A stretch of 16,036 bases of DNA from Ignavibacteriaceae bacterium (GTDB lineage Bacteria > Bacteroidota > Ignavibacteria > Ignavibacteriales > Ignavibacteriaceae). The position numbers and the translations under genes were made by a program. How positions within the stretch are numbered: the first letter of the stretch is position 1; each line of letters starts with the position of its first letter. This document shows positions 1 through 16,036 of the stretch, piece by piece. Below the pieces are notes generated by a model. That model had not been told where the DNA came from. It saw nothing but the letters and a program-made list of their open reading frames with translations, and made no database searches. The stretch spans positions 1 to 16,036 of the forward strand of contig JALHTS010000388.1 in assembly GCA_022865965.1 (NCBI GenBank), in the 5' to 3' direction.

Positions 1-657
1 AAGCAAGTCCTTTCTCATAATCACCAAGGTTACACCGGAGGGACCAATATTTTTTTGTGCACCGGCATATAGCATTCCGTATTTCGTCACATCAATTTTC
101 TTGTAAAGAATATCTGAAGATGCGTCGCATATTAATGGAACATTTCCAACTTCCGGCTCGGTGTGAAATTGTGTTCCGAAAATCGTATTGTTGGAAGTAA
201 AGTGAACATACGCTGCATCCGGATCAAGTTTCAGTTCACTTTGTTTTGGAATTCTTTTAAAATATTTTTTATCGCCCTCAGCTTCTTCAGTTGTAGCAGC
301 AATGTTCACAGTTCCAACACGTTTTGCTTCTTTAATTGCTTTCTTGGACCAGCTTCCTGTTGAAATATAATCTGCTTTATTTTTTGGAGGCATTAAGTTT
401 AACGGAACCATTGAAAACTGCAAACTGGCACCACCCTGAAGAAAGAGAATCGTATAATCATCAGGAATATCAAGAAGCTTCTTTAAGTTTTCTTTTGCTT
501 CTTGAAGTATTGCATCGAATGTTTTGGAACGGTGACTGATTTCCATAACCGACATTCCCACTCCGGGTAAGGTAAATAATTCTTTTTGAGCTTCAAGCAA
601 AACTTTTTCCGGTAAAACTGCCGGACCAGCACTGAAGTTATAAATTCTTTTTTCCAT
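1..657 (-). CDS. serC: Phosphoserine aminotransferase SerC (N-terminal 219 residues, cut by window edge)
   Basis: PLP-dependent enzyme that converts 3-phosphohydroxypyruvate and glutamate to phosphoserine and 2-oxoglutarate, the second step of serine synthesis, in the cytoplasm; it also acts in pyridoxal phosphate synthesis in many bacteria. The translated minus strand opens with MEKRIYNFSAGPAVLP, the classic SerC start. It then shows SHRSK (residues 41-45), FLQGGAS (73-79, phosphate and cofactor binding), NNTIFGTQF (156-164) and AGAQKNIGPSG (198-208), in which Lys202 is the expected Schiff-base lysine. The family is about 355-370 residues, so roughly 140 C-terminal residues lie beyond position 1. 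The ATG at 655-657 is preceded by AAAAGGAAT, a plausible ribosome binding site. The gene follows the DUF1015 gene by 59 bp on the same strand, so the two are probably co-transcribed, perhaps with serA outside the window. Confidence 0.96.
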   Translation of the reverse strand, partial: MEKRIYNFSAGPAVLPEKVLLEAQKELFTLPGVGMSVMEISHRSKTFDAILQEAKENLKKLLDIPDDYTILFLQGGASLQFSMVPLNLMPPKNKADYISTGSWSKKAIKEAKRVGTVNIAATTEEAEGDKKYFKRIPKQSELKLDPDAAYVHFTSNNTIFGTQFHTEPEVGNVPLICDASSDILYKKIDVTKYGMLYAGAQKNIGPSGVTLVIMRKDLL

Positions 658-716
658 GATAATATTCCTTTTATAATTTTGATTTTCTTAGTGAATCTTT
701 ATGCTCTTAGTTGCAT

Positions 717-1964: not shown

Positions 1965-2287
1965 AAAATCAATTTCCGTTTTTAGAAAATATTGTTAAAA
2001 TTTCACCACCTAAAAATCCGCAAAATAAACGGAATAGTCCACTAAAAAAGAGCGGTTTTCAGCTTTTATTTGCCGAGATTTTGTCCAATGTTCATTTTAT
2101 CAAGTTGCTCATCAAATGAATTTATGAATCTCAGAACCACAAAAGATTCAGTTCAGCATCATTTTGATTCGGGTAAATATGATGAGAAATGAATTTTATA
2201 ACTAAAGAAATAAATAATATCGAAAAATAGAGAGCAATGAAAATAGTTCGTTAAATGAATTCATTGCTCTTTATACTTGATGGAATT
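1965..2287. other. 323-bp intergenic stretch with a possible coding remnant
   Basis: This gap holds the leader of the DUF1015 gene and the terminator of the carbonic anhydrase gene (annotated separately). On the minus strand, 2066-2152 reads as 28 uninterrupted residues before a TAA, ending FDEQLDKMNIGQNLGK. That looks protein-like but has two in-frame stops just upstream (within 2153-2161) and no ATG start at its beginning. It may be the tail of a decayed gene or chance. I see no RNA gene or clear consensus promoter here, although the DUF1015-serC promoter should lie in this stretch. Confidence 0.3.
2221..2271 (-). terminator. Hairpin terminator downstream of the carbonic anhydrase gene
   Basis: An 11-bp perfect inverted repeat, AGAGCAATGAA (2231-2241) and TTCATTGCTCT (2260-2270), with an 18-nt loop, begins 18 bp past the carbonic anhydrase stop codon. 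Read on the minus strand, the stem is followed by CTATTTTTCG, a short T-run, as expected for intrinsic termination. The stem is AT-rich and the loop long, so efficiency is uncertain. It separates the carbonic anhydrase transcript from the DUF1015-serC unit. Confidence 0.6.
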
Positions 2288-3067
2288 TTACTCGGCAAAT
2301 TCCTGCGTTATCTTATTTGGAGAAGCTTCAACCATTTCTAATATTTCATTAGTTTTTTCTATTGGCAGCCAATTTATTTTGCCTGTTGAAATATCATAAA
2401 TTGCTCCAACAACCATTACTTTTCCGGAAGCAACTAATCTTCTTGTTGAAGCACTGTGCATAAATAAATCCTCAATGCTTTGCCATACATTTTCTTCAAT
2501 TGCGAAAGGCACAATATCATATCCATGAATGTCTTTGTGCTTTTCCATAGTCTTTTTTACAGCCGGTATAATGTTATCAACAAGGGGTGGAATGTTGTAC
2601 TCAAGTTTATGATGCTCGCCATTAACTACTTGAGTTACTGCAGTTACTGCCCCGCATTTAGTATGACCCAATACAACGAGCACAGGTGTATTTACGTGAG
2701 CAAGTCCGTATTCTATTGTTCCAATTTCATCAGTGTCTGCCACATTACCCGCAACTCTTACTACAAAAAGATCCATGACACCAGCATCAAATATAATTTC
2801 TACCGGGACTCTGGAATCGGAACAAGAAAGAATTGTTGCGTAAGCATAGTTTCCCTGGTCTTCTTTTCCTGCTAATTGAAGTCGTACAGCATCACTATTG
2901 GGGAAAGTAGATTTTCCACTAGAGAATCTTTCATTTCCTTCTTTAAGCATTTGTATAATTTGATCCAGAGATGGTTTTTCCTTTTTATCATCACCCGCAA
3001 AAGAAGGTTGAAGATAAGTTAATGATAACAGGACGATTAGGATTAGAATATTTATTGTGCTTTTCAT
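2288..3067 (-). CDS. Exported beta-class carbonic anhydrase
   Basis: Zinc enzyme that interconverts CO2 and bicarbonate. The 259-residue protein begins with a Sec-type signal peptide: lysine at position 2, a hydrophobic core at residues 6-20 and a likely cut after SFA at residue 24. The mature enzyme should therefore be periplasmic. The beta-class zinc site is complete: SCSDSRVP gives Cys82 with the Asp84-Arg86 dyad, and LGHTKCGAV gives His135 and Cys138. RVAGNV (104-109) and the C-terminal VVGAIYDISTGKINWL block are also typical of the family. The ATG is preceded by AAGAGG at good spacing. The gene stands alone, divergent from the acid phosphatase across a 125-bp gap and ended by a hairpin. 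Possible roles are supply of bicarbonate or pH buffering at the envelope. I do not assign a symbol, as periplasmic beta enzymes have no settled name. Confidence 0.95.
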   Translation of the reverse strand: MKSTINILILIVLLSLTYLQPSFAGDDKKEKPSLDQIIQMLKEGNERFSSGKSTFPNSDAVRLQLAGKEDQGNYAYATILSCSDSRVPVEIIFDAGVMDLFVVRVAGNVADTDEIGTIEYGLAHVNTPVLVVLGHTKCGAVTAVTQVVNGEHHKLEYNIPPLVDNIIPAVKKTMEKHKDIHGYDIVPFAIEENVWQSIEDLFMHSASTRRLVASGKVMVVGAIYDISTGKINWLPIEKTNEILEMVEASPNKITQEFAE

Positions 3068-3192
3068 TTGAACCTCTTTAATTTTTTTACTAAACCTTAA
3101 ACTTAATTATATGATTTATTTGTTTATTGTGAATGTAGTTTAAGTTATTTTGATTTGCAATGAAATAAGAATTAAATATTTAGTTTAACAAT

Positions 3193-3837
3193 ATGAAAAA
3201 ATATATTCTTTTAATCCTGCTTGTAATTATTCCATCTTGTTCGCCTGAAATTGTAAATCTCAGAGCAGCAAAAGACATTGTTAAAGATTATTATGAATCC
3301 GGCAAGTATGATGAAGAGATGAACGAAATAATTAATGATGCAAAAGAAAAGTTTAGTAAAATTGAGATTAAGAAATCCGCCTCAGGCGGATCAGTAGTAA
3401 TTTTTGATGTTGATGATACGGCATTATCAAATTATGAGATAAGTAAAAGATTAGATTTTGGATACGACAAAAAGATAATTGATGATTGGGTATTAAGCGC
3501 ACAACTTCCCGCAATCAAACAGACAAAAGAACTTTATGATTATCTAAAATCAAAAAATATAAAACTTATTTTTATTACTGGAAGGCTTACTGAGGAATAT
3601 GAGGCTACTTCTAAAAATCTAATCTCTCAAGGTTACACAGGATTTGATACTTTAATTGTAAGAAATGAACAAGAAAAGAAAATCAATTCTCAAATCTTCA
3701 AATCGAGAGTTAGAGAAAATCTCACCAAAGCTGGATATAAGATTATAGGAACCGTTGGCGACCAATGGCCTGACCTTAACGGACCATATTCAGGAATTCA
3801 AATAAAAGTTCCGAATTATCTTTATGAAGTGAAGTAA
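3193..3837 (+). CDS. Lipoprotein acid phosphatase, HAD superfamily (class B/e(P4)-like)
   Basis: A 214-residue predicted lipoprotein phosphomonoesterase, probably hydrolysing nucleotides or other phosphate esters outside the cytoplasm. Residues 1-16 form a lipoprotein signal (basic start, hydrophobic core, lipobox-like IPSC with Cys16; Pro at -2 is unusual). HAD motif I is FDVDDTALSN (71-80) with the nucleophile Asp72 and acid/base Asp74. Motif II is IFITGR (126-131), and the final acidic motif is GDQWPDLNG (189-197). The pattern DxDDT plus GDxxxDL matches the HAD subfamily IIIB acid phosphatases (PF03767). Residues 62-66 (SASGG), just before motif I, are encoded by a short palindrome that looks like an insertion. 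No Shine-Dalgarno is visible before the ATG, but it gives the complete signal peptide. The gene stands alone between the divergent carbonic anhydrase gene and a repeat preceding valS. Confidence 0.9.
   Translation: MKKYILLILLVIIPSCSPEIVNLRAAKDIVKDYYESGKYDEEMNEIINDAKEKFSKIEIKKSASGGSVVIFDVDDTALSNYEISKRLDFGYDKKIIDDWVLSAQLPAIKQTKELYDYLKSKNIKLIFITGRLTEEYEATSKNLISQGYTGFDTLIVRNEQEKKINSQIFKSRVRENLTKAGYKIIGTVGDQWPDLNGPYSGIQIKVPNYLYEVK
3375..3391. repeat. Short palindrome (TCCGCC/GGCGGA family) inside the acid phosphatase gene
   Basis: ATCCGCCTCAGGCGGAT is an 8-bp-arm palindrome around a single central base. It is GC-rich against an AT-rich gene and encodes SASGG in frame. The same arms occur twice in valS at 5110-5139, so this is a dispersed element and not a chance hairpin. 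Confidence 0.75.
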
Positions 3838-3845
3838 AGCAAATG

Positions 3846-3934
3846 CAATAGCACGCAGATTTCACTGATTGTGCTGATTTACACAGATTTAATCTATGAG
3901 GATCTGTTGAATCTGCGTTATCAGCGTTCTATTG
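3846..3934. repeat. 89-bp imperfect inverted-repeat element between acid phosphatase and valS
   Basis: Outer arms CAATAG (3846-3851) and CTATTG (3929-3934) enclose a second pair, ACGCAGATT (3853-3861) and AATCTGCGT (3910-3918). Between them are further GATT/CAGATT-type words. The whole can fold into a long interrupted hairpin. This type of CGCAGATT/AATCTGCG repeat is widely dispersed in Bacteroidota-like genomes. It might act as a transcription boundary between the phosphatase and valS, but there is no T-run to call it a standard terminator. Confidence 0.6.
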
Positions 3935-3999
3935 GTCTTATTCCGCACTCGCTAAAAATTCTTATATTTACACCTCAATTTTCACCAATAGAGATATAG

Positions 4000-6672
4000 A
4001 TGTCCGCAAAAAGTTTTTCAGAGATTCCAAAGGCATACGATCCTGCCCAAGTTGAGGATAAATGGTATAAATACTGGCTCGATAATGAAATTTTTCACTC
4101 CGAAATAGATGAAACAAAAAAGCCATATACAATTGCAATTCCGCCGCCGAACATAACTGGTATGCTTACGATGGGACACGTCCTTAACAACACGTTACAA
4201 GATATTTTCATCCGGACAAAACGTATGCAGGGTTATAATGCCTGTTGGGTTCCCGGAACAGATCACGCTTCAATTGCTACTGAAACTAAGGTAACAAAGT
4301 TTTTAGATGATAAAGGTATTAAGAAATATGAAATTGGTCGTGATGCATTTTTAGAGTACTGCCAAGAATGGAGAAAAGAGTACGGCGGAATAATTATTCA
4401 GCAGTTAAAAAAACTTGGTGTTAGCTGCGACTGGCGAAGAGAAGTCTTCACAATGGATGATCAATACTATTACGAAGTAATAAAAGCGTTTGTTGATCTT
4501 TATAAAGAAGGAAAGATTTATCGAGGCTACAGGATGGTTAACTGGGATCCTGCAAATAAATCTGCCATATCTGACGAAGAAGTTATTTACAAAACAGTAA
4601 ATGGAAAGCTTTGGTATTTTAAATATCCCGTTGTTGGTAGTGATGAGTATATTGTTGTTGCAACTACACGACCGGAAACAATGCTTGGCGATACAGGCGT
4701 TGCTGTTAATCCTAATGATGATCGTTATAAACATTTAATAGGAAAGAAAGTAAAACTTCCTATTGCAGAAAGAGAAATTCCAATTTTTGCAGATGAATAT
4801 GTTGATATGGAATTCGGTACGGGTGCAGTCAAGGTTACTCCCGCTCACGATGTTAATGATTATAATATGGGAATGCGTCACAAACTTGAGTTCATAAATA
4901 TTTTTAATGACGCCGCAACGACAAATAGTAATGTGCCTAAATGGCTGCGCGGACAAGATCGTTTTGAAGTTCGTAAAAAAGTAATTGCAAAGTTTGAAGA
5001 ACTTGGATTGATGCATAAGATTGAAGATTATCAGAATAAGGTTGGTTACTCTGAACGCGGCAACGTTCCTATCGAACCTTATTTATCTGAACAATGGTTT
5101 ATGAAAATGTCCGCCGAAGGCGGATCCGCCTCTGGCGGAGATGATCTTGTTACTCCAGCAATTAATGCTGTTAAGAGTGGTCGAATAAGATTTTATCCGA
5201 AGCACTGGGAAAAAACTTATTCTCACTGGATGGAAAATATTAGAGATTGGTGTATCTCACGCCAGCTTTGGTGGGGGCATCGAATTCCAGTTTGGTATAA
5301 CAAACAAACCAACGAAATTTATTGTGATGTAAATCCTCCGCAAGACACCGAAAATTGGACGCAGGACGAAGATGTGCTTGATACGTGGGCATCAAGCTGG
5401 TTGTGGGCGCATGCAATTTTCAGAACAGAAGAGGAAAGAAAATATTATTATCCAACAAACACACTTGTAACAGCCCCTGATATAATTTTCTTCTGGGTTG
5501 CAAGAATGATTATGGCAGGAATGCATTTTAGGAAGGATATTCCTTTCAGCGATGTTTACTTTACAAGCATTATTCGTGATGTGCAGGGAAGAAAAATGAG
5601 TAAGTCGCTCGGCAACTCCCCCAATCCTCTCGTCGTTATTAAAGATTATGGTGCCGATGCTTTGCGGTTCACGGTTATCTATCTTGCACCGCTTGGACAG
5701 GATGTTCTTTTCAGCACAGATAAATGCGAGCTTGGAAGAAATTTTGCAAACAAGATATGGAATGCCGGAAGATTTTTGTTAATGAACCTGCCTGACCGGC
5801 AGGCAGGTCGTGAAAATATTCAATTAGATAAATCACTCTTAGATAAGCATAAAGATTTTGCCGATGAATGGATAATCTCGCGATTGAACAAGACCCTTAT
5901 TCAGTTCAACAAAGCAATGGATGAATTTGAGGTGAACAATACAATCAAACTTGTTTACTCGTTTATATGGAATGATTACTGCGACTGGTATGTTGAGATG
6001 ATTAAAAACAGATTATATGGAGATAATGAAGAAATTAAATCAGCAGTTCTCACACGTGCTATTTCCATATTTGAAGATGCGTTAAAAATGCTTCATCCTT
6101 TTATGCCTTTTATAACGGAAGAATTATGGCAGTTAACCAACGAACGCAAAGAGGGTGAAAGTATCTCAACTTCGGTTTTTCCAAAAGCAGATGAAAAGAT
6201 GATAAATGAATCTGCCGAAAAAGAAATGGATTTTGTAAAAGATATAATCACCGCAATAAGAAACATCCGCGGCGAGATGAATATTGCACCATCTAAAAAA
6301 GTTAATGCAATGATAAAATCTTCATCGGTAAAATACTATCAGATTGAGTACATTAAAAAGCTCGCAAAAGTTGAAGACATAAAAGTTGATTCGAATATTC
6401 AAAAACCAAAAGCCAGTGTATCGGCAGTTTTAAGTAATTGTGAAATATTTATTCCTCTTGAAGGACTAATTGACCTTGAAGTTGAACGACAGAGAATGCA
6501 AAAAGAAATAACCCGGCTTGAAGGCTCACTTGCAGGAATTGAAAAGAAGCTTTCCAATGAAAAATTTGTTGCCAACGCTGCTGCAGAAGTTGTCGAAAAG
6601 GAAAGAGCCAAGCAAAAAGATTGGCAGGAAAATATTGGCAAACTTAAGGAGATTTTAAATAATTTGAATTAG
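4000..6672 (+). CDS. valS: Valyl-tRNA synthetase
   Basis: Class I aminoacyl-tRNA synthetase that charges tRNA-Val and edits mischarged threonine, in the cytoplasm. The 890-residue protein is full length. Visible signatures are PPPNITGMLTMGH (48-60, HIGH motif, with Thr in place of the first His), the CP1 editing region in the middle (TTRPETMLGDTGVAV), DWCISRQLWWGHRIP (from 416), GRKMSKSLGN (KMSKS at 532-536), the anticodon-binding domain, and a C-terminal coiled coil (about 827-890) typical of ValRS. Two insertions interrupt conserved stretches: residues 371-380 (SAEGGSASGG) after EQWFMKM, and 597-603 (LPDRQAG) after the RFLLMN segment. Both are encoded by palindromic repeats and keep the frame. 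The ATG at 4000 gives the normal N-terminus; only a weak AGAGATA precedes it. It appears monocistronic, preceded by a repeat and followed by the paired-palindrome unit. Confidence 0.98.
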   Translation: MSAKSFSEIPKAYDPAQVEDKWYKYWLDNEIFHSEIDETKKPYTIAIPPPNITGMLTMGHVLNNTLQDIFIRTKRMQGYNACWVPGTDHASIATETKVTKFLDDKGIKKYEIGRDAFLEYCQEWRKEYGGIIIQQLKKLGVSCDWRREVFTMDDQYYYEVIKAFVDLYKEGKIYRGYRMVNWDPANKSAISDEEVIYKTVNGKLWYFKYPVVGSDEYIVVATTRPETMLGDTGVAVNPNDDRYKHLIGKKVKLPIAEREIPIFADEYVDMEFGTGAVKVTPAHDVNDYNMGMRHKLEFINIFNDAATTNSNVPKWLRGQDRFEVRKKVIAKFEELGLMHKIEDYQNKVGYSERGNVPIEPYLSEQWFMKMSAEGGSASGGDDLVTPAINAVKSGRIRFYPKHWEKTYSHWMENIRDWCISRQLWWGHRIPVWYNKQTNEIYCDVNPPQDTENWTQDEDVLDTWASSWLWAHAIFRTEEERKYYYPTNTLVTAPDIIFFWVARMIMAGMHFRKDIPFSDVYFTSIIRDVQGRKMSKSLGNSPNPLVVIKDYGADALRFTVIYLAPLGQDVLFSTDKCELGRNFANKIWNAGRFLLMNLPDRQAGRENIQLDKSLLDKHKDFADEWIISRLNKTLIQFNKAMDEFEVNNTIKLVYSFIWNDYCDWYVEMIKNRLYGDNEEIKSAVLTRAISIFEDALKMLHPFMPFITEELWQLTNERKEGESISTSVFPKADEKMINESAEKEMDFVKDIITAIRNIRGEMNIAPSKKVNAMIKSSSVKYYQIEYIKKLAKVEDIKVDSNIQKPKASVSAVLSNCEIFIPLEGLIDLEVERQRMQKEITRLEGSLAGIEKKLSNEKFVANAAAEVVEKERAKQKDWQENIGKLKEILNNLN
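5110..5139. repeat. Tandem pair of 15-bp palindromes inserted in frame in valS
   Basis: Two abutting units, TCCGCCGAAGGCGGA (5110-5124) and TCCGCCTCTGGCGGA (5125-5139), share 6-bp arms and differ only in the 3-nt centre. They encode SAEGGSASGG, which replaces the usual short linker after the EQWF motif of ValRS. The 30-bp length keeps the frame. The same arms occur at 3376-3390. Confidence 0.85.
5786..5808. repeat. Second palindrome family (CCTGCCTG/CAGGCAGG) in frame in valS
   Basis: Nine-bp arms ACCTGCCTG (5786-5794) and CAGGCAGGT (5800-5808) enclose the 5-nt loop ACCGG. The unit encodes LPDRQAG at residues 597-603 of ValRS, an addition between the conserved RFLLMN segment and the anticodon-binding domain. 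It is much more GC-rich than the gene around it. Its sequence is unrelated to the TCCGCC family, so a second element family has used the same gene. Confidence 0.8.
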
Positions 6673-6683
6673 GTTTAACCTTT

Positions 6684-6759
6684 GTCATCCTTCGACAAGC
6701 TCAGGATGACATTTGAAAGCTCAAAACAATTTGTCACACTGAGCTTGTCGAAGTGTGAC
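6684..6759. repeat. Paired-palindrome (BIME-like) unit, left copy
   Basis: Two 27-nt palindromes, 6684-6710 and 6733-6759, lie in opposite orientation around a 22-nt spacer. They share the core CTTCGACAAGCTCAG, forward in the first and inverted in the second. Flanking hexamers are GTCATC/GATGAC in the first and GTCACA/TGTGAC in the second, so each palindrome can form its own 8-bp stem, and the pair can also fold on each other (23 of 27 positions complementary). It begins 11 bp after the valS stop codon and may also help end that transcript. Confidence 0.88.
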
Positions 6760-6769
6760 CTATAATTAA

Positions 6770-7057
6770 ATGATAGATTACTTTGTTTACATATTAAAAT
6801 GCTCTGATGATAGTTATTATACCGGGGTAACAAATGATTTGGAAAGAAGAATTGGTGAACATCAAAATGGAGTTATAAAGGGTTATACATCAAGTAGATT
6901 ACCCGTAAGATTAGTTTATTCGGAAAGATTCTCTGATATAAATCAGGCAATCAAAGTTGAGAAGCAAATAAAAGGTTGGAGTAGAAAAAAGAAAGAAGCA
7001 TTGATGGAAGGAAACTTTGATTTGTTAGTTGAGTTATCGAATCAAAAAAGCAAATAG
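6770..7057 (+). CDS. Small single-domain GIY-YIG endonuclease (YhbQ/UPF0213-like)
   Basis: A 95-residue protein consisting almost entirely of one GIY-YIG nuclease fold. Residues 4-11 (YFVYILKC) supply the first motif strand with Tyr7, YYTGVTNDLERRIGEH (16-31) supplies the second motif tyrosine and the catalytic arginine region (Arg26/27, His31), and Glu64 in VEKQIKGW is the likely metal ligand. The segment WSRKKKEALMEGN (70-82) is typical of the stand-alone bacterial branch, whose members are thought to be DNA nucleases of uncertain role. All expected active-site residues appear present. The ATG follows an A/T-rich leader without a clear Shine-Dalgarno, only 10 bp after the left repeat; the right repeat begins 9 bp after the stop. 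The tight fit between two repeat units suggests gene and repeats form one unit. Confidence 0.9.
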   Translation: MIDYFVYILKCSDDSYYTGVTNDLERRIGEHQNGVIKGYTSSRLPVRLVYSERFSDINQAIKVEKQIKGWSRKKKEALMEGNFDLLVELSNQKSK

Positions 7058-7066
7058 AAGATTAAT

Positions 7067-7142
7067 GTCATCCTTCGACAGGCTCAGGATGACATTTGAA
7101 TACACAAAATAATTTGTTACGCTGAACCTGTCGAAGTGTGAC
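7067..7142. repeat. Paired-palindrome (BIME-like) unit, right copy
   Basis: Same architecture and length as the left copy: palindromes at 7067-7093 and 7116-7142 around a 22-nt spacer. The cores are CTTCGACAGGCTCAG and CTGAACCTGTCGAAG, each one or two bases from the left copy. The outer bases of the second palindrome are GTTACG/TGTGAC, where two changes turn Watson-Crick pairs into G-U wobble pairs, so the stem would still fold as RNA. Its right end supplies the in-frame stop that limits the 5' extension of the DinB reading frame. Confidence 0.88.
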
Positions 7143-7162
7143 ACAAGAACAGAGTAAATATT

Positions 7163-7662
7163 TTGTATCGCAAATTAGAAGACTTTATAAAGGATTGGAC
7201 TTACGAGTCTGAATCTACGCTTAAAATATTTAACAATCTTACAGATGAGTCTTTAAAAAAAAAGTTAATGATAATGTTAGAACAGCAGGAAGACTTGCAT
7301 GGCATATGACAACGTCGGTTGTACAAATGGCGCATCGTACCGGATTGATATTTAAAACAGTGGATGAAGATTCTCCAGTTCCTGCAACTGCAAAAGAAAT
7401 TGTTAGTGCCTACAAAGAAGTGTCTGAAAATATTATTACGGAGATCAAGGCAAAGTGGAATGATGAAACTCTTAATCTGGAAGATGATATGTTTAGTGAA
7501 AAATGGAAAAGGGGAATGACGCTTGCAATAATTATCTCACATCAAATTCACCATCGTGCGCAGCTTACTGTGGTAATGAGATTAAACGGACTTAAAGTTC
7601 CCGGAATTTATGGTCCATCAAAAGAAGAGTGGATAAGTTATGGAAAGCCGGCACAGGATTAA
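7163..7662 (+). pseudogene. DinB-family protein, frameshifted in an A9 tract
   Basis: DinB-like four-helix-bundle proteins are putative metal-dependent enzymes, often thiol-dependent transferases, with a three-histidine metal site. The downstream frame (7264-7662) contains RLAWHM and a C-terminal ISHQIHHRAQL, giving all three histidines, and ends YGKPAQD. The N-terminal helix lies in a different frame: from TTG at 7163 it reads LYRKLEDFIKDWTYESEST and continues to NNLTDESL before a run of nine A (7255-7263). One extra A would join the halves into a normal protein of about 166 residues reading ESLKKKVNDNVRTAGRLAWHM. As sequenced, only a fragment starting at the ATG at 7306 (118 residues, lacking the first metal-ligand segment) would be made. 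The TTG start is chosen because no ATG exists between the stop at 7139 and the tract. A sequencing error, slippage or true decay all fit. Confidence 0.75.
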
Positions 7663-7766
7663 TTTTATATTCTTTAGGTAGTAATATTTTTAATTTGGGG
7701 TGATTCAATCCCAACAGAACTATCCACAAGGTTCTTAGAGTCTAAAATAATAAACGAATATTTTAA

Positions 7767-7795
7767 TTGAAGAAGTTTATTGTTTTGTGTATAAT
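7767..7795 (+). promoter_or_regulatory. Sigma-70-like promoter for the permease gene
   Basis: TTGAAG (7767-7772) and TATAAT (7790-7795) are separated by 17 bp. Transcription would start near 7802, leaving an 85-nt leader before the ATG at 7887. The remaining intergenic DNA (7663-7847) is AT-rich and shows no other feature. FCB-group primary sigma factors can prefer other boxes, so this is a pattern match only. Confidence 0.45.
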
Positions 7796-7886
7796 AACAT
7801 TAAAATAAATTTAAGATTCAACAATTCCCTCTAAATTTATTTGATAATTGTTCTATACTTGTTTTATCACAAGCAGAGACATTTAT

Positions 7887-10160
7887 ATGAAAAAATTTGA
7901 CACTGAAGTTCATCTTAGCCGAGAGATGGGCTTGATGGATGCAACTCTTATCGGTGTTGGTGCAATGATTGGTGCCGGAATTTTTGTTCTTACTGGCATC
8001 GCAGCCGGAGTAGCGGGTCCGGGATTAATAATTGTATTCTCTCTTAATGGACTTGTTGCTCTCCTTACAGCATTCGCTTATGCTGAGCTTGGGTCCTGCT
8101 ATCATGATGCTGGTGGCGGCTATCTTTGGGTTAAAGAAGGTCTGCCAAAATGGAATGGATTTATTTCCGGCTGGATGAGCTGGTTTGCGCATGCTGTTGC
8201 GTGCAGTCTTTACGCGTTAGGATTTGGAGCTTATTTTGATTTAGTTCTTCGTGAATTCAATATCGTTATGCCTCACTGGGGATTTTTTTCACCTCAAAAA
8301 ATTCTTGCAGCTGTTACAGCAGTTGTTTTCGCTTATGTTAATTTTCGCGGAGCTTCTGAAACAGGTAAAGTGGGAAACATAGTAACTATTGCCAAAATTA
8401 TTATACTATTTATATTCATAGGCTTTGGTTTAAATTTGGTTTTCCATCTACCTGATTGGCAGGATGCTTTTACTCCTTTTCTTCCCAATGGCTGGGGAGG
8501 AGTTTTTAAAGCGATGGGATTAACATTTATTGCATTCCAGGGATTTGAAGTTATATCACAATGTTCTGAAGAAATTAAAAACCCTAAGAAGAATATTCCG
8601 AGAGCTGTCTTCCTTTCACTCTTAATCGTAGTTCCAATTTATCTTCTAATTTCTGTTACTGCCTTAGGAGCAGTGAAACCAGAAGGCGGTATAACGCCCT
8701 GGGATTATTTGGCATCACACAAAGAAACTGCGCTTGTTGAAGTTGCAAAGACATTTTTTGTCGGTGGTGGAATTATGCTTCTTGTCGGTGGTATCATTTC
8801 TACAATGTCTGCTCTAAATGCAACAATTTTTTCATCTTCCCGCGTAGCATTTGCAATGGGGAGAGACAGGAATTTCCCAACATTATTTAGTAAAGTTCAT
8901 AAGAAAAATTTTACTCCGCACCTTTCAATTATCTTTTCGTTAATCATTGTTGTAATTATGGCTATCTCTTTGCCGATTGAAGATGTTGCAAGTGCTGCTG
9001 ATCTTATGTTCCTTTTATTATTCCTTCAGGTTAACATTACTCTAATTCGATTAAGGAAGAAAAGACCGGATTTAGATCGCGGTTTTGTTACGCCGTTATT
9101 TCCTTACTTATCTATTGTAGGAATTCTATTGTTATTATTCCTTGCCATATACATGTTTAATTACAGCCCTACGGCTTGGATAGTTACAATAGTTTGGGTA
9201 AGTGTAGGATTAATTACTTATAAATTTTATGCTGCGGATAGAGAAATTGAGCATGTAAGAAAAGTAAAATCTTTAGAAAGACTTGAACGGAAAGAATATA
9301 GGGTATTGCTCCCCCTAGCAAACAAGAAATCAGTTGCTAGCCTTACACATATTGCAATTGCAGTTGCTAAAAAATCAAATGCCGAAATTCTGTTTTTGAA
9401 TATTAATGAAGTTCGGGAGAAAAGTCCTTTAGTAACAGAGTTAGGTGATAGAGAAAAGGCTAAGCCGCTTTTTGATACTGCCAATGAAATTGCTGAGGAA
9501 GCGGGTATTCCAGCTAGGTCGATTTTAAATGTATCTCATAGAATTTCTCAGGGAATTGTAAACACCGCAGAAGAAGAAGAATGTAATTTTATTGTAGTTG
9601 GACGACAAAAAAATCCTGATTTTCTTGAAAGATTTTTTTCATCAGTTATCGATAGTGTTATTCATAAGTTTCCCGGAGAGGTTGCCGTTCTTCATGGCAG
9701 ATTTGAAAAGGAAAATATAAAAACCATTTTAATACCGTTTACGATTGATATCCATGCAATATTGGCAACCGAAATCGCACCTGCGTTAATTAATTACTTT
9801 AATTGTAAACTTAAAATCCTGCTTGTCTACGATCCAGAAACATCAAAGCAGGAAAGAGAAGAAAGGGAATTAAAAGTAAAAGAACTAATTAAGCAAAATT
9901 CACTCGATGCAGAAATTATTATTATTAAAGATGCTGATATCGTTAAAGCAATTGTAGATCAATCAAGTAAAGTTGATCTTATGTTAATGGGTGGCAAGAC
10001 GGGAGATTTTCTTGAATTATTGCTCGGGCGATCACTTGCCCAAGAAATAACAGAACAATCCTCTTGTCCGGTTCTTTGGGTAAAAGAGTACGAGGAAAGA
10101 GAACCTCTATGGAAACTTTTATTAAAATCACCTAAGCAAATAGGAGTTGAAAATGGATAA
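7887..10160 (+). CDS. APC-family amino acid permease fused to two universal stress protein domains
   Basis: A 757-residue inner-membrane transporter with a cytoplasmic regulatory tail. Residues 1 to about 440 carry roughly twelve hydrophobic helices of the APC superfamily, starting with the substrate-binding helix signature GVGAMIGAGIFVLTG; other family features are FAYAELG and the QCSEEIKNPKKNIPRA loop. The tail holds two UspA-like domains, from about residue 469 (YRVLLPLANKKSVASLTHIA) and about 609 (IKTILIPF). The second ends with MGGKTGDFLELLLGRSLAQEI and CPVLWV, close to the G-x2-G-x9-G(S/T) nucleotide-binding pattern. The tail likely senses nucleotide or stress state, an inference from the fusion. 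I chose ATG 7887 (MKKFDTEVHLSREMG) over the in-frame ATG 39 bp upstream because the extra residues do not look conserved. Its stop overlaps the next gene, so translation is probably coupled. Confidence 0.92.
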   Translation: MKKFDTEVHLSREMGLMDATLIGVGAMIGAGIFVLTGIAAGVAGPGLIIVFSLNGLVALLTAFAYAELGSCYHDAGGGYLWVKEGLPKWNGFISGWMSWFAHAVACSLYALGFGAYFDLVLREFNIVMPHWGFFSPQKILAAVTAVVFAYVNFRGASETGKVGNIVTIAKIIILFIFIGFGLNLVFHLPDWQDAFTPFLPNGWGGVFKAMGLTFIAFQGFEVISQCSEEIKNPKKNIPRAVFLSLLIVVPIYLLISVTALGAVKPEGGITPWDYLASHKETALVEVAKTFFVGGGIMLLVGGIISTMSALNATIFSSSRVAFAMGRDRNFPTLFSKVHKKNFTPHLSIIFSLIIVVIMAISLPIEDVASAADLMFLLLFLQVNITLIRLRKKRPDLDRGFVTPLFPYLSIVGILLLLFLAIYMFNYSPTAWIVTIVWVSVGLITYKFYAADREIEHVRKVKSLERLERKEYRVLLPLANKKSVASLTHIAIAVAKKSNAEILFLNINEVREKSPLVTELGDREKAKPLFDTANEIAEEAGIPARSILNVSHRISQGIVNTAEEEECNFIVVGRQKNPDFLERFFSSVIDSVIHKFPGEVAVLHGRFEKENIKTILIPFTIDIHAILATEIAPALINYFNCKLKILLVYDPETSKQEREERELKVKELIKQNSLDAEIIIIKDADIVKAIVDQSSKVDLMLMGGKTGDFLELLLGRSLAQEITEQSSCPVLWVKEYEEREPLWKLLLKSPKQIGVENG
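10142..10146 (+). promoter_or_regulatory. Ribosome binding site that sets the start of the small membrane protein
   Basis: AGGAG lies 6 nt before the ATG at 10153, ideal spacing. This favours 10153 over the in-frame TTG at 10147, which directly abuts the AGGAG. The site lies inside the end of the permease gene, consistent with coupled translation. Confidence 0.75.
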
Positions 10161-10809
10161 GAATTTAGAAAGTCCGTTTCTGGACTTTGGCACTCAAATA
10201 ATCAATTATTTGCCAAGCCTGTTAGCAGGATTTATTTTGTTATTAATTGGATGGCTTGTTGGTTGGCTTGCTAAAAGAATAACTATTCAATTGCTGGTTG
10301 TTCTTAGATTTGAAAAACTTTTTATGAGAATGCAATGGAGGAGAGCGCTTTCTAAAGCTGATATTAGATATGCTGTATTTAACATGATAGGGAATGTAGT
10401 GTTTTTTATTGTGTTTCTAATATTCCTCAACTCGGCTCTGGATGCGATGAAACTCACAGTACTCTCAGTATTAATTCAGCAAGGTGTAGTTTTTATACCA
10501 AAATTAATTATTGCACTTTTAATTATGGGATTGGGTTGGATTATTGCCGCGCGGGTATCAAACAGTGTTTATAATGCACTGCTTAAAGAAAATTTACCTC
10601 ACTACTCAATTATTTCCCGCTTTGTAAAATTTGTTGCAATTCTATTTTTCTCATCAATGGCTCTGGTTGAGATAGATATTGCACCTCAGATTGTAATTAT
10701 TGGGTTTACAACTATAATGATAACGTTGGGAATAATACTTATTGCTATCACAGTGTTTAGCGGTAAATCTTCGGTAAATAACTTTTTAAATATTGTTGAT
10801 AAAAAATAA
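10153..10809 (+). CDS. Small integral membrane protein with mechanosensitive-channel TM-helix repeats
   Basis: A 218-residue membrane protein resembling the conserved TM_helix family (PF05552), related to the transmembrane part of mechanosensitive channels. Four to five hydrophobic helices are visible at about residues 18-40, 76-93, 102-132, 155-172 and 178-203. Helices one and three carry glycine-rich faces (LLIGWLVGWLAKR; LIIALLIMGLGWIIAARV), as in pore-lining or packing helices, each followed by a basic end. There is no MscS beta domain, so it is not a complete channel of that type. It overlaps the permease-USP gene by 8 bp and surely shares its transcript, so it may assemble with or regulate that transporter, or respond to membrane tension. 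It converges with the mscS operon across a 165-bp gap in which I see only weak hairpins. Confidence 0.8.
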   Translation: MDKNLESPFLDFGTQIINYLPSLLAGFILLLIGWLVGWLAKRITIQLLVVLRFEKLFMRMQWRRALSKADIRYAVFNMIGNVVFFIVFLIFLNSALDAMKLTVLSVLIQQGVVFIPKLIIALLIMGLGWIIAARVSNSVYNALLKENLPHYSIISRFVKFVAILFFSSMALVEIDIAPQIVIIGFTTIMITLGIILIAITVFSGKSSVNNFLNIVDKK

Positions 10810-10974
10810 AAGATAGTTAAGACTTATATCAGGGTATTATAATTTTTTCTTTTACCTCTGAATATTATTATAAATTTTTTGGATGCATATATTTATCAAC
10901 GCTTTAGAGCAATAATAGATCTTAATATTTATTTTCTCATCAATCTAAGCTTGATTTAGTAAATAGATATTAGC

Positions 10975-11946
10975 CTAACTCATCTGTTCTGGCTTGATTA
11001 TTTCCTTTTTTATTAATTCACGCATAACTATTTCTGTCATATCACTTTTAAAAGTAAATTCATATCGAATATCCATCACATAAGCTTTTAGTCTCATTTT
11101 CAAGTAAGATCTATCTTCTTTTACTTCATTAAAAAAGAGAACAACTATAGGTTTGTTCAAATAAACATATCTCGAGACCTGTGCGGCTTCCAATGCGATT
11201 TGTCTTACTTTTTCGGCATCAACATTTATAGGCAGATACAATTCGGCAACAACTTGGCAATTAGGTTCTCCCGAATTGGAATTTGAAACTGATTTACTCA
11301 TCAGATCACCGTTCGGTATTGTAACAACGGAATCATCAGGTGTTACGATCCGAGTTGAGCGCAAGCCAATCTTTATTACTTCACCATAATGACTATCAAT
11401 TTCAATTTTATCTCCAATCTGAAAAGGACGATCAAATATTATCATTATTCCGCCGAAAATATTTTTAAATATATCCTGAGAGGCAAAACCTACTGCAATA
11501 CCCAAAGAAGCGAGAATAGCAATTAATGTTTCAGCAGGCGGGCTAAAAATGCCGTTAATAATTAAATAAAAAATAAAAGCCCAGCCAAGGATTCGGATAA
11601 CTGGTATAAAACCCTTGATTGTAATTCGGTAATTAGTACTTTTCTCGGCAAACAGGTCAAGAATTTTGGTAATAAATTTTATAATAAAGGCGCCAACAAT
11701 AAAGAACACAATTGCCCAGAAAATTTTTCCAACTGAAATGATATCCTCAATAGATGGCGGTGTTAAATTGATTTTGTTATCCGCTTTTGTTTTTTCTGTT
11801 TTTGTAACCTGCACATTCAAGGTTGTTTGAGATACAGTATCTTTTTGAAGAGTTTTGTTTAGTGAATCAGTTTGCGGCTGAATGCTTTTACTAAAAAGTA
11901 AAAAAGAACAAACAAGTAAAATCGTTATTGTTTTTAAGTTTCGCAT
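10975..11946 (-). CDS. MscS-family mechanosensitive channel (third gene of the operon)
   Basis: A 323-residue small-conductance mechanosensitive channel that would open under membrane tension and release solutes. Residues 1-24 look like a signal peptide or first helix, followed by a polar stretch rich in Thr, Lys and Asp (25-65). Transmembrane helices lie at about 75-98 and 112-134, and the pore helix at 140-170 has the MscS pattern of alternating small residues (LIAILASLGIAVGFASQDIFKNIFGG, about 141-166). The beta domain follows with DRPFQIGDKIEI (172-183) and TIPNGDLM (209-216), then the alpha/beta C-terminal cytoplasmic domain. Its ATG is only 4 bp past the stop of the ATPase gene and no Shine-Dalgarno is visible, so translation is probably coupled to that gene. 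Confidence 0.93.
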   Translation of the reverse strand: MRNLKTITILLVCSFLLFSKSIQPQTDSLNKTLQKDTVSQTTLNVQVTKTEKTKADNKINLTPPSIEDIISVGKIFWAIVFFIVGAFIIKFITKILDLFAEKSTNYRITIKGFIPVIRILGWAFIFYLIINGIFSPPAETLIAILASLGIAVGFASQDIFKNIFGGIMIIFDRPFQIGDKIEIDSHYGEVIKIGLRSTRIVTPDDSVVTIPNGDLMSKSVSNSNSGEPNCQVVAELYLPINVDAEKVRQIALEAAQVSRYVYLNKPIVVLFFNEVKEDRSYLKMRLKAYVMDIRYEFTFKSDMTEIVMRELIKKEIIKPEQMS

Positions 11947-11950
11947 AATT

Positions 11951-14900
11951 TTAATGTATTATATTTTTTGATTTCAATAGACTGACTATTTGCCTGAATA
12001 AAAGAGGATTTACTATATATAAATCATTCTGTTTAACTATGATTCCGTCATCATGCAACAATAAAAAAAGCAATCTGGATTTGTTTAATGGTACACTAAA
12101 TATCTCTGAATGATCCTCTTCGTGTAAACCATCATGAAGCAATAAAGCACTTAGAGTAAAAATTTTATCACTCGAAAGGTTAGCTAAGAATGAATAATCC
12201 AGATCAGGCGGTGAACCAATTTTAATTTCATCATCAACAATTTCTTTTGCAGAACGCAACCAGAAAATTAGTGCAAGGCTAATATTCCCTTGAGCAAAAT
12301 TATTTAGCTCTATAAAATATTTCTTCATAAGATATGGTTGTTTTTCTTCCTCAGTGAGTTTCTTAAATGATTTTGATTTTAATATACTTTGATCTGCCTC
12401 ATATTCAATATTATAACCGCTAACCCGATGTCGTTTTGAGACAAGGTTTGTAATTTGATCTTCGTCAAGCTTTGTAAGGTTTATTACATAACCGAAATAA
12501 TCAAATGCATGAATAGTTTTATCAAGATAAACCCATCCATAAATTGTACAGGTGGAAATCCAGAAGATATTCTTATTGGTTTTTGATATAATTTCAAAAA
12601 ATGCTTTTAGTACATAAAACCCATCTACTTTGCGAAGGAACAACCGCTGAAGATTTTCTAAAATAATAACTTTTTTAGCGGGCAGCTTGTTCAGGTATTC
12701 AATTATTTCTTCTATTGAGTTGAACTTTGGTACTTTTAATATTCCGGACAATAACTTAAAAAACGAATCCAGATCTGGAATAGGTTCTAATACGGAAGAT
12801 CTGATGATATCATATGGATCTGCATTATTTGCAAGAAAATAATTTATTAGCGAGGTTGAACCACTTCCTTTTTCGCCGACTATTATTGTTGATGCAAATT
12901 TTTCTTTTTGCCAATTTGTTAATGCCTTATTCAGTTTGCTTAACTCAGGTTCTCTGCCAAAAAAGAACCTGGCATCATTTAGCGGTTTAACTTCAAATAA
13001 TCTTTGGTAGACAAACGGAAGCCTGTGAATTGCTAATTGAGTTTCGGCAAGATAGTCAGAAACTTCGCTGGCAATTACTTTTGCGGCAGGAGCGAGACCA
13101 ATTAGTTCCCGAATTTTTTGATAAGATTCTGAAGTTTTTCTTAACCCTTTTTGCGCTAATGATAAAAGTTGCGGCAGAGCATTTTTAATATTTTGTACAA
13201 TTTTTTCTCTAACATGCTTAGATCTTTTTATAGCTTTTGCCTTAGCGAGGGTTAGCTTTATATTAAAAATCTTTTCGGTTTCAGTTAAGCTTTTTAAATC
13301 AGAATTAAATTCAGAGGTTGCAGAACTCAGTTCACTATCAAATATAATTGATAGGTTGTCAAATTTATTTTTAATTTCGACTATTTTTTTAACAGCACGA
13401 TCCAATCCTTCTAAGGCAATAGTTTTAGATTTCTCAGTGTCATTTTCGGATTCGAGTAAATTTAAAGCCGACTCAACATTAAAATCAGATATGTGGTCAA
13501 TCTCAGCTAATTCGTTCTGAATTTGTTGGACCTGAGAGTTAATGAATGTTCTTAATTTTCCGGTTGCACTAAAAAATTTGGGGGCTGTAGAATACTCAAG
13601 AATCTCTCGTGGAGAAAATATATTTATTTCTGAATCTTTTATTTCTTTATCATATTCATCAGTCTTAACCAACACTCTCTTTTGTTTGACATTATTAATC
13701 TCCTCTCTTATTAGATTGTCAAACTCGGCCACTATACCGGTGAGATTCTGATCTAAAATAATGGCAGTGATTTCCGGAATAAGTTTGTTTGTTAATTCTT
13801 GATTTATTTGACTTTTAGTTTCTCTATATGAATTTAAAAGATCATTTTTATTTTTGGATAAATCTAATTCCGTATTTAATTTCTTTATAAAAGAAGCTAA
13901 TTCATTTGATCGAGGGATTAGATTTTTTTCAATACCAGATTTGAAAACAGAACTATATTTATCAAGCTGAATTAAAGTGTTGTATCTTATTTGATAAAGC
14001 TCATTATTCATCTCCCAATCATCACCGAGGGATGTAAAATTATTTTTCCAGCCATTGAAAACTCTTGAAGCGCTCTCTGAAATTTGTTTGTTTTTTCTCT
14101 TTAGAACACCTTTTCTTAATTTCCATCCCGGATTTTCAATAGTTCCTGCTGTTAAATAATCGGCTTCATATGCTGCAAAAACAGGTTCAAATGAGTTGTC
14201 AATCTCATTGATCAAAGATTCTTCAAACTGATTTAGCCGTACAAGTAATTCACTAATCTTTTGTTGAATATTTAATTCATTAATTTTATCTAAAGAATTA
14301 TTATCACCAGAAGGATAATGTTTTTGATTAATATTTTCATCAAGCGATTCATATACGCTCCATAATTCTTTAGCTGTACTGCTTCTCAGCTGAAATAATT
14401 TACGTGTGATTTCAATAAGTTTAAGAGATAAATTATTATATAGATGGTATTGTCGCAAGTTTTTTAATAAAACAAATTGCTTCCAGACTTTCTTTTCTTT
14501 AATAGGTTTGCGAAATAATTTTCTAAACAAATTGCTGATTGAGATTGGGATATTTGAGATTTTGTAAAAGAATTTCTTAACCGGTTTACGAATTTTTATG
14601 TGAAGTTTATCAGTCTGTTTTTTTACAAATCTTTCAGGATCCTGGAATTCAATTACCCTTTTGTCAGATTCTGTAATAAATTTCTCTAGAGCAATATAAA
14701 AATCCGGAAATGACTCTTGTAAACTTGTCCTATTACCAAGTTCAAAATATGGAGTAATCAGCTTTTCAATTTTTTTATTTACAGTTAGTACATTTTCTAA
14801 GTAAGTCGTTTTATCTGAACTTAAATCAGTTTCCGAAGCCTGCTGTAGTTGTATTAATAAATTTCTGCTTTTATCAATAAATTCGCGTTGTAATTTTATT

Positions 14901-14980
14901 TGATTTTTTAGGACAGGTAAGAATTTTAGTTTAACTAATGAATCGACAACTTGCCTTACTTCCATAAAATTTTCTTTCAT
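11951..14980 (-). CDS. Large coiled-coil P-loop ATPase (STAND/ORC-like) between two mscS genes
   Basis: A 1009-residue protein I cannot name. Residues 1 to about 670 are long charged helices with coiled-coil character and no transmembrane helix. Residues 119-168 form a strongly basic, partly amphipathic stretch (KKFFYKISNIPISISNLFRK at 135-154) that could touch membrane. From about 678 an AAA_16/STAND-type ATPase starts with RFFFGREPELSKL. The P-loop at 702-710 reads GEKGSGSTS, with Ser where the Walker A Lys should be, and Walker B is KKVIILEN (about 766-773). A sensor-like NIFWISTCTIYG follows. The last 80 or so residues resemble a winged helix (LLHDDGIIVKQNDLYIVNP). It starts 21 bp after the upstream mscS and stops 4 bp before the downstream mscS, so it very likely works with the channels. 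The start ATG (14978-14980) has AGGAA upstream; a second ATG five codons in is less supported. Confidence 0.85.
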   Translation of the reverse strand: MKENFMEVRQVVDSLVKLKFLPVLKNQIKLQREFIDKSRNLLIQLQQASETDLSSDKTTYLENVLTVNKKIEKLITPYFELGNRTSLQESFPDFYIALEKFITESDKRVIEFQDPERFVKKQTDKLHIKIRKPVKKFFYKISNIPISISNLFRKLFRKPIKEKKVWKQFVLLKNLRQYHLYNNLSLKLIEITRKLFQLRSSTAKELWSVYESLDENINQKHYPSGDNNSLDKINELNIQQKISELLVRLNQFEESLINEIDNSFEPVFAAYEADYLTAGTIENPGWKLRKGVLKRKNKQISESASRVFNGWKNNFTSLGDDWEMNNELYQIRYNTLIQLDKYSSVFKSGIEKNLIPRSNELASFIKKLNTELDLSKNKNDLLNSYRETKSQINQELTNKLIPEITAIILDQNLTGIVAEFDNLIREEINNVKQKRVLVKTDEYDKEIKDSEINIFSPREILEYSTAPKFFSATGKLRTFINSQVQQIQNELAEIDHISDFNVESALNLLESENDTEKSKTIALEGLDRAVKKIVEIKNKFDNLSIIFDSELSSATSEFNSDLKSLTETEKIFNIKLTLAKAKAIKRSKHVREKIVQNIKNALPQLLSLAQKGLRKTSESYQKIRELIGLAPAAKVIASEVSDYLAETQLAIHRLPFVYQRLFEVKPLNDARFFFGREPELSKLNKALTNWQKEKFASTIIVGEKGSGSTSLINYFLANNADPYDIIRSSVLEPIPDLDSFFKLLSGILKVPKFNSIEEIIEYLNKLPAKKVIILENLQRLFLRKVDGFYVLKAFFEIISKTNKNIFWISTCTIYGWVYLDKTIHAFDYFGYVINLTKLDEDQITNLVSKRHRVSGYNIEYEADQSILKSKSFKKLTEEEKQPYLMKKYFIELNNFAQGNISLALIFWLRSAKEIVDDEIKIGSPPDLDYSFLANLSSDKIFTLSALLLHDGLHEEDHSEIFSVPLNKSRLLFLLLHDDGIIVKQNDLYIVNPLLFRQIVSLLKSKNIIH

Positions 14981-15001
14981 AAACCATTATTTCCTAATAC
15001 T

Positions 15002-15916
15002 TTATTTTTTGTCTGGTTGTAGATCTTTTTTACCCTCAGTAGAATTATTATAAAACCTCTGTGTTGGATAGGCGAAATCAATATCGTCACATTCTGCAAA
15101 TTTGTTAAGTATATCTTCCCAAATTTTTTCTTCAATTGATCTTCTTTCTCTTGGATCACACATATATCGCATTGTCAGCATTACTCCGCTGTCTTTTACT
15201 GAAGTATAAACAATTGGTGTCAGTTTATTGTAAAATATTAAAAATCTTTTCGCAGCCTCTTTAATTTGTTTTTCTGCTTCCGTACTTAATAATATGCCGT
15301 GATGATTTACGATATCAGCTAATATCTTCTTTGCTTTTTTCCAATCACTTTCAAATGTTACCAAAACTGGAATCTCATTCCAGATGTATTGAAATTCAGC
15401 ATTGTAATTAGCTTGTGGCTCAGTAAAAACTATACCGTTAGGAATATGTATTATTCTGCCGGTGCTTTGTTCTGCATCAACCCAGTTGCCTATTTCCATT
15501 ATCGAGAACTGGAAGAGTCTGATATCAATTATATCTCCTGCCACTTTCCCTATTTGTATTCTATCCCCAACTTTGAAAGGCTGACGAATCAATATGAATG
15601 CCCAAGAAACCATGTTCACCAATGGATCTTTGAGAGCAATTGCAATACCTGCAGATAGCAAACCCAAAAAAGTTCCCATCGAACCGAAAAGCTTTAACCA
15701 AACATTCAACAAAAAGATGATTATCAGAAAAACTGCCAGATACAATGATATCTTCTGCCATTGGTAGCGTACTTTTAAATCTACAATTCTATGAATAAAT
15801 AACTTTTTAAGAAGCCGCTGAATTATCAAAATTACAATAATGACGATGACTGATACTATAATCTTGTATTGAAGATCCGGGGAAAGACCTAAATAATTTT
15901 TTAGAAATTCTTGCAT
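15002..15916 (-). CDS. MscS-family mechanosensitive channel (first gene of the operon)
   Basis: A 304-residue MscS-type channel without a signal peptide. Hydrophobic helices at about 17-36 and 56-76 precede the pore-lining helix (GTFLGLLSAGIAIALKDPLV, 81-100). The beta-domain signature FILIRQPFKVGDRIQIGKVAG follows (107-127), then IIHIPNGIVFTEP (155-167). The C-terminal cytoplasmic part is longer than in the third-gene channel and ends in a charged tail (EGKKDLQPDKK). The two channels share a fold but clearly differ in sequence, so they are not a recent duplication. The ATG at 15916 is the only in-frame start after the stop at about 15935; no good Shine-Dalgarno precedes it. It is followed after 21 bp by the ATPase gene, making it the first clear member of the channel-ATPase-channel operon. 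Confidence 0.93.
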   Translation of the reverse strand: MQEFLKNYLGLSPDLQYKIIVSVIVIIVILIIQRLLKKLFIHRIVDLKVRYQWQKISLYLAVFLIIIFLLNVWLKLFGSMGTFLGLLSAGIAIALKDPLVNMVSWAFILIRQPFKVGDRIQIGKVAGDIIDIRLFQFSIMEIGNWVDAEQSTGRIIHIPNGIVFTEPQANYNAEFQYIWNEIPVLVTFESDWKKAKKILADIVNHHGILLSTEAEKQIKEAAKRFLIFYNKLTPIVYTSVKDSGVMLTMRYMCDPRERRSIEEKIWEDILNKFAECDDIDFAYPTQRFYNNSTEGKKDLQPDKK

Positions 15917-15964
15917 AGGAGAATCATTGTTTAATTATAACTTTAAAATTTAGCACGATATAAT

Positions 15965-16036
15965 TTATTGTTTTTTAAGAACAACTTCATAAAGATCTTG
16001 TCTTCTATCAAACCAATTTAGCGTACTTCCTTGCGA
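15965..16036 (-). CDS. C-terminal end of an unrecognised gene cut by the window edge
   Basis: The minus strand from 16036 reads SQGSTLNWFDRRQDLYEVVL followed by KKQ and a TAA stop (15965-15967), giving 23 residues in frame. The composition is protein-like and it ends 48 bp upstream of the mscS start on the same strand, so it could be the gene preceding, or part of, that operon. Too little is present to name a family. Confidence 0.55.
   Translation of the reverse strand, partial: SQGSTLNWFDRRQDLYEVVLKKQ

Follow-up and report, generated by a model that had tools for sequence, protein, structure and literature searches.

An AAA+-type protein paired with an MscS channel in Bacteroidota and Calditrichota suggests an unrecognised control over water and potassium in the cell

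We analyzed a 16,036-nucleotide stretch of an Ignavibacteriaceae bacterium (GCA_022865965.1, contig JALHTS010000388.1, positions 1 to 16,036, forward strand; hereafter the window) and found that a gene for a large ATPase-like protein and the gene for an MscS-type channel directly after it almost certainly form a unit. Related helical-AAA+ modules occur fused to transporters, and the pair and these fusions together suggest an unrecognised means by which cells may keep water and potassium in balance. The two genes of the window are as follows (aa, amino acids):

11951..14980, minus strand: P0002, coiled-coil/AAA+ partner protein of 1009 aa (open reading frame [ORF] analysis, Pfam, AlphaFold2, Foldseek)
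10975..11946, minus strand: P0001, partner MscS channel of 323 aa (Pfam, structure model, neighbour counts)

A preliminary description of the window had proposed that the ATPase and MscS work as a functional unit, an idea that ATPase homologs mostly lacking mscS neighbours would have spoken against. Tabulation of neighbours gave the opposite picture and bore the proposal out: among 155 loci encoding non-identical proteins (Bacteroidota, Calditrichota, and one Novosphingobium plasmid), 154 carried an mscS gene on the same strand within 400 base pairs (bp), the exception being a contig end. Across these 154 loci, the median gap within the pair was 1.5 bp, 147 gaps were no longer than 50 bp, and 65 pairs overlapped. 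At the named loci, the same-strand ORF immediately following the ATPase encoded an MscS in 71 of 72 (the remaining contig, L089, ends 2 bp past the ATPase), and an adjacent MscS was present at 16 of 16 loci of relatives and 28 of 28 additional loci. The reversed order, mscS first, was seen at 13 loci of one clade (support 1.0 in the ATPase tree and 0.93 in the MscS tree); gene order was inverted once and the pair was kept. The L133 locus has mscS upstream of the ATPase.

The association also held from the side of the channel. Of 395 genomes from the phylum, which are related by descent and not 395 independent trials, 64 had a match to a partner-type MscS model (A4, E ≤ 1e-60), one each; all 64 fell within the 75 genomes with an ATPase match, and none of the 320 others had the partner (two genome scans, scoring the best 2 and the best 5 first-look candidates per genome). 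The partner gene was downstream of the ATPase in 48 genomes, upstream in 14, and on a different contig in 2. Eleven genomes had the ATPase match only: eight contained types II or III of the family (see below), with a divergent MscS, and three weak matches (G013, G241, and G295; E 1e-4 to 4e-4) were excluded from the family. G013 was rejected as a member, its locus having a generic 862-aa ATPase and no MscS. No genome with the two genes far apart was seen, besides G361 and G273, where contig ends divide the pair. The ATPase and MscS distance matrices were correlated at 0.77 over 154 loci and at 0.63 within type I (permutation maximum, 0.21), a measure that ignores species phylogeny. These counts show that, as judged from genome sequences, the two genes are inseparable and specific to each other in Bacteroidota and Calditrichota alike. 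It is highly improbable that the genes merely form a conserved operon with shared regulation and no direct functional contact: the adjacency survives inversion of the order and is found in three or more deep subtypes and once on the plasmid of another phylum, and genomes that lack the ATPase lack the channel subfamily as well.

We further examined larger and smaller forms of the ATPase-like protein. Type II (8 loci, approximately 1500 aa) has an N-terminal membrane domain, in which Na_H_Exchanger scored above the Pfam cut-off in five of seven proteins scanned (L124, L125, L126, L127, and L132). For L125, this match reached 75.8 bits (cut-off 26.2), and the NCBIfam CPA2 model gave 36.3 bits, short of its 238.3. 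Pfam found no Na_H_Exchanger in L122 and L135; the first 470 residues of L122 match those of L125 at 33%, and the N-terminus of L135 has 11 predicted transmembrane (TM) helices and no Pfam transporter match. We tried the idea that the fused domain equals an unfused neighbour, which was unsupported, as BLASTP found no similarity of the type II N-terminus to the free-standing L025 antiporter or to the ORF before the L122 gene. Type III (approximately 1700 aa; 12 loci, L128, L129, L130, L226, L240, L241, L242, L244, and L279-L282) begins with an AA_permease/SLC12 region, AA_permease being detected in both proteins scanned and the SLC12 domain in one (L129: 150.5 and 32.9 bits, both above the Pfam cut-off). 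The NCBIfam K-Cl cotransporter model gave L129 387.5 bits (E 1.4e-115), below its cut-off of 953.4, and K-Cl transport is therefore not claimed for type III. Among the top 120 homologs listed for type III, 119 were approximately 1700 aa long, under names including Ignavibacteriaceae, Calditrichaceae, Lentisphaeria, Marinimicrobia, Latescibacteria, and Desulfobacteraceae; where such SLC12/permease-helical-AAA+ fusions carry a protein name, it is just 'amino acid permease'. An MscS-like gene adjoined all 12 type III loci, each of which was examined for neighbours, and all 8 type II loci (split into two ORFs in L281 and cut by the contig end in L244); no MscS lay near the stand-alone SLC12 genes (L223, L224, and L225). 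The N-terminal halves of types III and II resemble SLC12 cation-chloride cotransporters and CPA2 antiporters, respectively, but unlike plain members of those families they are joined to the helical-AAA+ module, and an MscS-like gene comes next. These domain matches show that related modules are fused to predicted K+/Na+-type secondary transporters. Smaller AAA-only forms (approximately 300-430 aa) stand beside mscS at L140-L145, and plasmid Mpl of Novosphingobium PP1Y (L162) encodes an approximately 1111-aa protein (24.5% identity) that opens with a signal-like stretch and has predicted TM helices ahead of its AAA domain, again followed by mscS; this protein has 14 homologs, mainly from Sphingomonadales where named. 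L131, cut by a contig start, was counted as type I, its type being unsure.

Ion-transport genes surround part of the family. Among 92 loci with long flanks, the commonest other families were generic MscS (16), RimK (14), TrkH (14), Zn_protease (13), CorA (12), TrkA/K+ channel (12), and AstE/AspA (9), and at least one ion-transport neighbour was present at 35. Twelve of the 14 TrkH genes were on the same strand within 1.8 kb, set against a base rate of 43 matches in 61 whole genomes (25 with any). TrkH was present at all seven type II loci of the long-flank set, and five type I loci had TrkH, an antiporter, the ATPase, and mscS on one strand; the order TrkA-TrkH-Na_H_Exchanger-ATPase-mscS was verified at L025. 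TrkA/TrkH genes themselves thus adjoin the pair at some loci, and such gene orders show that some family loci are, by their predicted products, K+-transport operons. A role of the pair in K+ and osmotic balance is, in our judgement, likely. Seven loci (L024, L027, L029, L035, L037, L039, and L051) have a Zn_protease-RimK-AstE/AspA trio directly upstream of the pair. The genome of the window itself contains, beyond the window (G000:C362:1407-4169), a 982-aa frame with two tandem TrkH matches, possibly a single-chain K+ transporter dimer.

P0002 had only sub-threshold AAA matches in Pfam, and no named family was found for it in Pfam, NCBIfam, PADLOC, or the PDB; a profile of 92 homologs found no related solved structure beyond one weak helical match. 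Protein search recovered 98 homologs, most of them near 1000 aa, at identities down to 27%. The AlphaFold2 model (92 input sequences; mean predicted local distance difference test score 86.9) has long helices to about residue 626 and divides into a helical part (approximately residues 1-650), an AAA+ domain (approximately 650-930), and a winged helix extending to residue 1009. Its best Foldseek matches, Orc1/Cdc6, TnsC, and NSF chains, cover residues 649-986. P0002 therefore shares the AAA+ fold and C-terminal winged helix of the Orc1/Cdc6-type initiator clade; unlike Orc1/Cdc6 and TnsC, it has a helical N-terminal part of approximately 650 residues and a tie to a membrane channel, its branch has mostly lost the P-loop lysine, and no DNA-related context was observed. 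The nSTAND1 score, 18.8 bits, fell below its cut-off of 27.1, and P0002, which also lacks an intact Walker A lysine, was not assigned to the STAND NTPases. No TM helix was predicted in P0002 (19-residue hydropathy maximum, 1.28). The following stretches of P0002 bear on its activity:

12854..12877, minus strand: P-loop, residues 702-709 (GEKGSGST), with Ser708 at the expected Walker A lysine position
12647..12676, minus strand: Walker B-like stretch, residues 769-778 (KKVIILENLQ), with Glu-Asn replacing Asp-Glu
14483..14611, minus strand: basic amphipathic segment, residues 124-166, a candidate membrane- or channel-facing surface, from its charge across 92 homologs

The Walker A lysine, replaced by serine in the window copy, was present in all type II (8/8), type III (12/12), and Novosphingobium (1/1) members and in the AAA-only forms with data (5/5). 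Type I retained it in 36 of 114 members and the reversed-order group in 0 of 13, a distribution that needs 10 changes by parsimony. The ATPase site therefore appears to be ancestral; it is putatively functional in the fusions and has been relaxed several times in the proteins that stand alone, including the window copy, for which ATP hydrolysis is doubtful because the lysine is absent. Arg850 and Gly787 (P0002 numbering) were invariant in 154 of 154 members, and the region of the nucleotide site is thus under constraint. The nucleotide-dependent control proposed in the preliminary description hence stays plausible for the family, but the branch of the window mostly lacks the P-loop lysine. The conserved segment equivalent to residues 124-166 had a mean net charge of +9.4 in 92 homologs and at least +5 in 91 of them, compared with a mean of +0.3 for segments of the same size.

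P0001 belongs to the MscS superfamily (MscS, MscK, MscM, YnaI) by sequence and fold: its MS_channel_2nd beta domain scored 82.6 bits (Pfam cut-off 20.2), a TM3 pore helix is followed by the cytoplasmic cage domains, its sequence matches in the PDB were MscK (2e-18), MscM, and MscS, and its model resembles MscS-type structures. It consists of a signal-like helix (residues 2-21), a disordered periplasmic stretch, three TM helices, a beta domain, and an alpha/beta domain. Unlike known MscS proteins, it has a dedicated soluble AAA+ partner gene, adds the N-terminal signal-like helix and disordered stretch, and is modelled as ending before the end barrel. The model closes with a terminal helix and aligns only to residue ~267-271 of E. 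coli MscS, presumably where the end barrel of that protein would start. The bottom alpha/beta domain is well conserved among the partner MscS proteins.

We slightly favour the view that the AAA+ protein acts in K+ and osmotic homeostasis as the dedicated cytosolic subunit regulating an MscS channel, the pair acting as one unit that would adjust ion (mainly K+) and osmolyte flux. Given the well-conserved alpha/beta domain and the missing end barrel of the partner, the soluble AAA+ protein may bind the cytoplasmic face of its MscS heptamer; direct docking and gating are a tentative proposal, to which we give a little less than an even chance. Through its helical part, whose basic amphipathic segment would lie near the membrane, the protein could set the opening threshold of the channel, or alternatively make the channel respond to nucleotide, ionic strength, or crowding. 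In the fusions, the link of the module to a transporter would let uptake and release be set together, and in the branch of the window the module probably acts by binding and conformational change, not by ATP hydrolysis. A broader and more speculative possibility is that the helical-AAA+ module is a cell-volume controller of MscS channels and, by fusion, of SLC12-like and Na+/H+-type transporters in several phyla, in which one sensor sets both K+/salt uptake and pressure release; the branch of the window would then be a lysine-less sensor that binds nucleotide without burning it.

Several observations weigh against a regulatory role in K+ and osmotic homeostasis. The loci are non-independent, for example type II coming from few genera and five TrkH loci sharing one arrangement, and the mirror-tree correlation is uncorrected for species phylogeny. 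None of the ion-transport neighbours sought was present at 57 of 92 loci, and RimK (14/92) and Zn_protease (13/92), which are not obviously osmotic, were as frequent as TrkH. The cage-conservation comparison used sets of unequal diversity, and the MscS-like proteins paired with types II and III have diverged strongly and may be non-conducting.

The AAA+ protein could instead be an assembly or quality-control factor, namely a dedicated chaperone or loader for MscS (and the fused transporter) and not a gating subunit. The Orc/Cdc6/TnsC/NSF-type fold, found in machines that remodel protein or DNA complexes, and the one-to-one specificity suit such a factor, but the loss of the P-loop lysine from most type I and all reversed-order members is unexpected for a remodelling motor and a permanent transporter fusion favours a structural subunit, and we regard this alternative as unlikely. 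Somewhat less probable still is a non-enzymatic scaffold or sensor of turgor or crowding, a pseudo-AAA rod bridging membrane and channel for which nucleotide is irrelevant. Ser708, the lack of lysine in most type I proteins, the Glu-Asn of Walker B, and the strongly basic amphipathic segment would fit such a rod, but the lysine kept in types II and III, Novosphingobium, and the AAA-only forms and the constraint around Arg850 and Gly787 argue against it.

The preliminary description had also raised a defence device, and searches for one yielded nothing specific. No PADLOC model matched P0001, P0002, or P0003 (the second MscS of the window, described below) up to E 0.1; neither viral contigs nor 50,697 phage records contained a relative; and the sole match in plasmids was the relative from Novosphingobium, whose gene is also followed by mscS. 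An anti-phage or conflict device, with an NLR/STAND-like sensor and MscS as membrane effector, would be in line with a remote structural resemblance to the NB-ARC domains of plant NLRs, seen among the Foldseek matches, and with weak generic AAA matches of PADLOC in three of seven relatives (mad8 6e-6, PtuA 3e-4, and AbiLi 9e-4). We nevertheless consider it very improbable, because the window proteins lack PADLOC matches, the family is absent from phages and viral contigs, none of the ten neighbour families identified is of defence type, the frequent neighbours being ion transporters and housekeeping genes, and the family forms fusions and operons with ion transporters.

The second channel gene of the window is placed as follows:

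15002..15916, minus strand: P0003, second, generic MscS of 304 aa, 21 bp upstream of P0002 (Pfam, neighbour counts)

All three ORFs at 10975..15916 are genuine, with the strand and the gaps (21 bp and 4 bp) first reported, but the channel-ATPase-channel composition read from them did not generalize. P0003 is a generic member of the MscS family (Pfam), and an mscS directly upstream of the pair on the same strand recurred at only 1 (L071) of the 116 other loci that had 1.2 kb or more of upstream sequence; a two-channel unit was accordingly rejected as a general feature, the conserved partner being the downstream channel (10975-11946). The order ATPase-mscS-mscS was found at L047, L062, L273, and L278 among 103 loci, a fifth listed case (L093) being a broken partner gene, and at L022, the closest relative retrieved (59% identical), the opposite strand carries a generic MscS at a distance of 2.2 kb. 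Clustering placed a generic second MscS in 16 of 92 flanks, or approximately 14 after L093 and L146 (seemingly partner pieces). This loose clustering near the pair is real, as it exceeds the expectation from 2.7 generic MscS per genome, and P0003 is an optional co-expressed channel, not the conserved partner. Convergent with the ATPase-mscS genes, the window also carries an APC permease with Usp domains (7848-10160, plus strand) and, overlapping it by 14 bp, a TM-helix protein (10147-10809, plus strand) with MscS-type 'conserved TM helix' repeats (Pfam); neither had relatives among the 92 family-locus flanks.

No open-access paper was found, by title and start of abstract, that describes the ATPase-MscS pair, subscription papers being outside this scope; PMC13192273 concerns separate genes and not the pair. 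The component folds are known, with no novelty claimed for the fold of the helical part, and the dedicated AAA+ partner for MscS, together with the occurrence of its module on SLC12-like and antiporter proteins, is new as a system within the families, structures, and open-access papers searched.

TrkA/KtrA, KefF, and the SUR of Kir6 are soluble or accessory nucleotide-binding subunits that set a channel or transporter, and they provide a precedent for cytosolic control of ion flux. The likeness is in working principle only, as the folds are unrelated and an AAA+ partner and an MscS channel are involved here. MscS is the textbook channel that requires lipid tension alone; an MscS subfamily never found without an AAA+ partner in the sampled genomes would mean that some MscS channels are under cytosolic control. 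It would also give a handle on how bacteria link K+ uptake to pressure release. The finding further suggests a function for the very large transporter fusions that are currently annotated simply as 'amino acid permease'.

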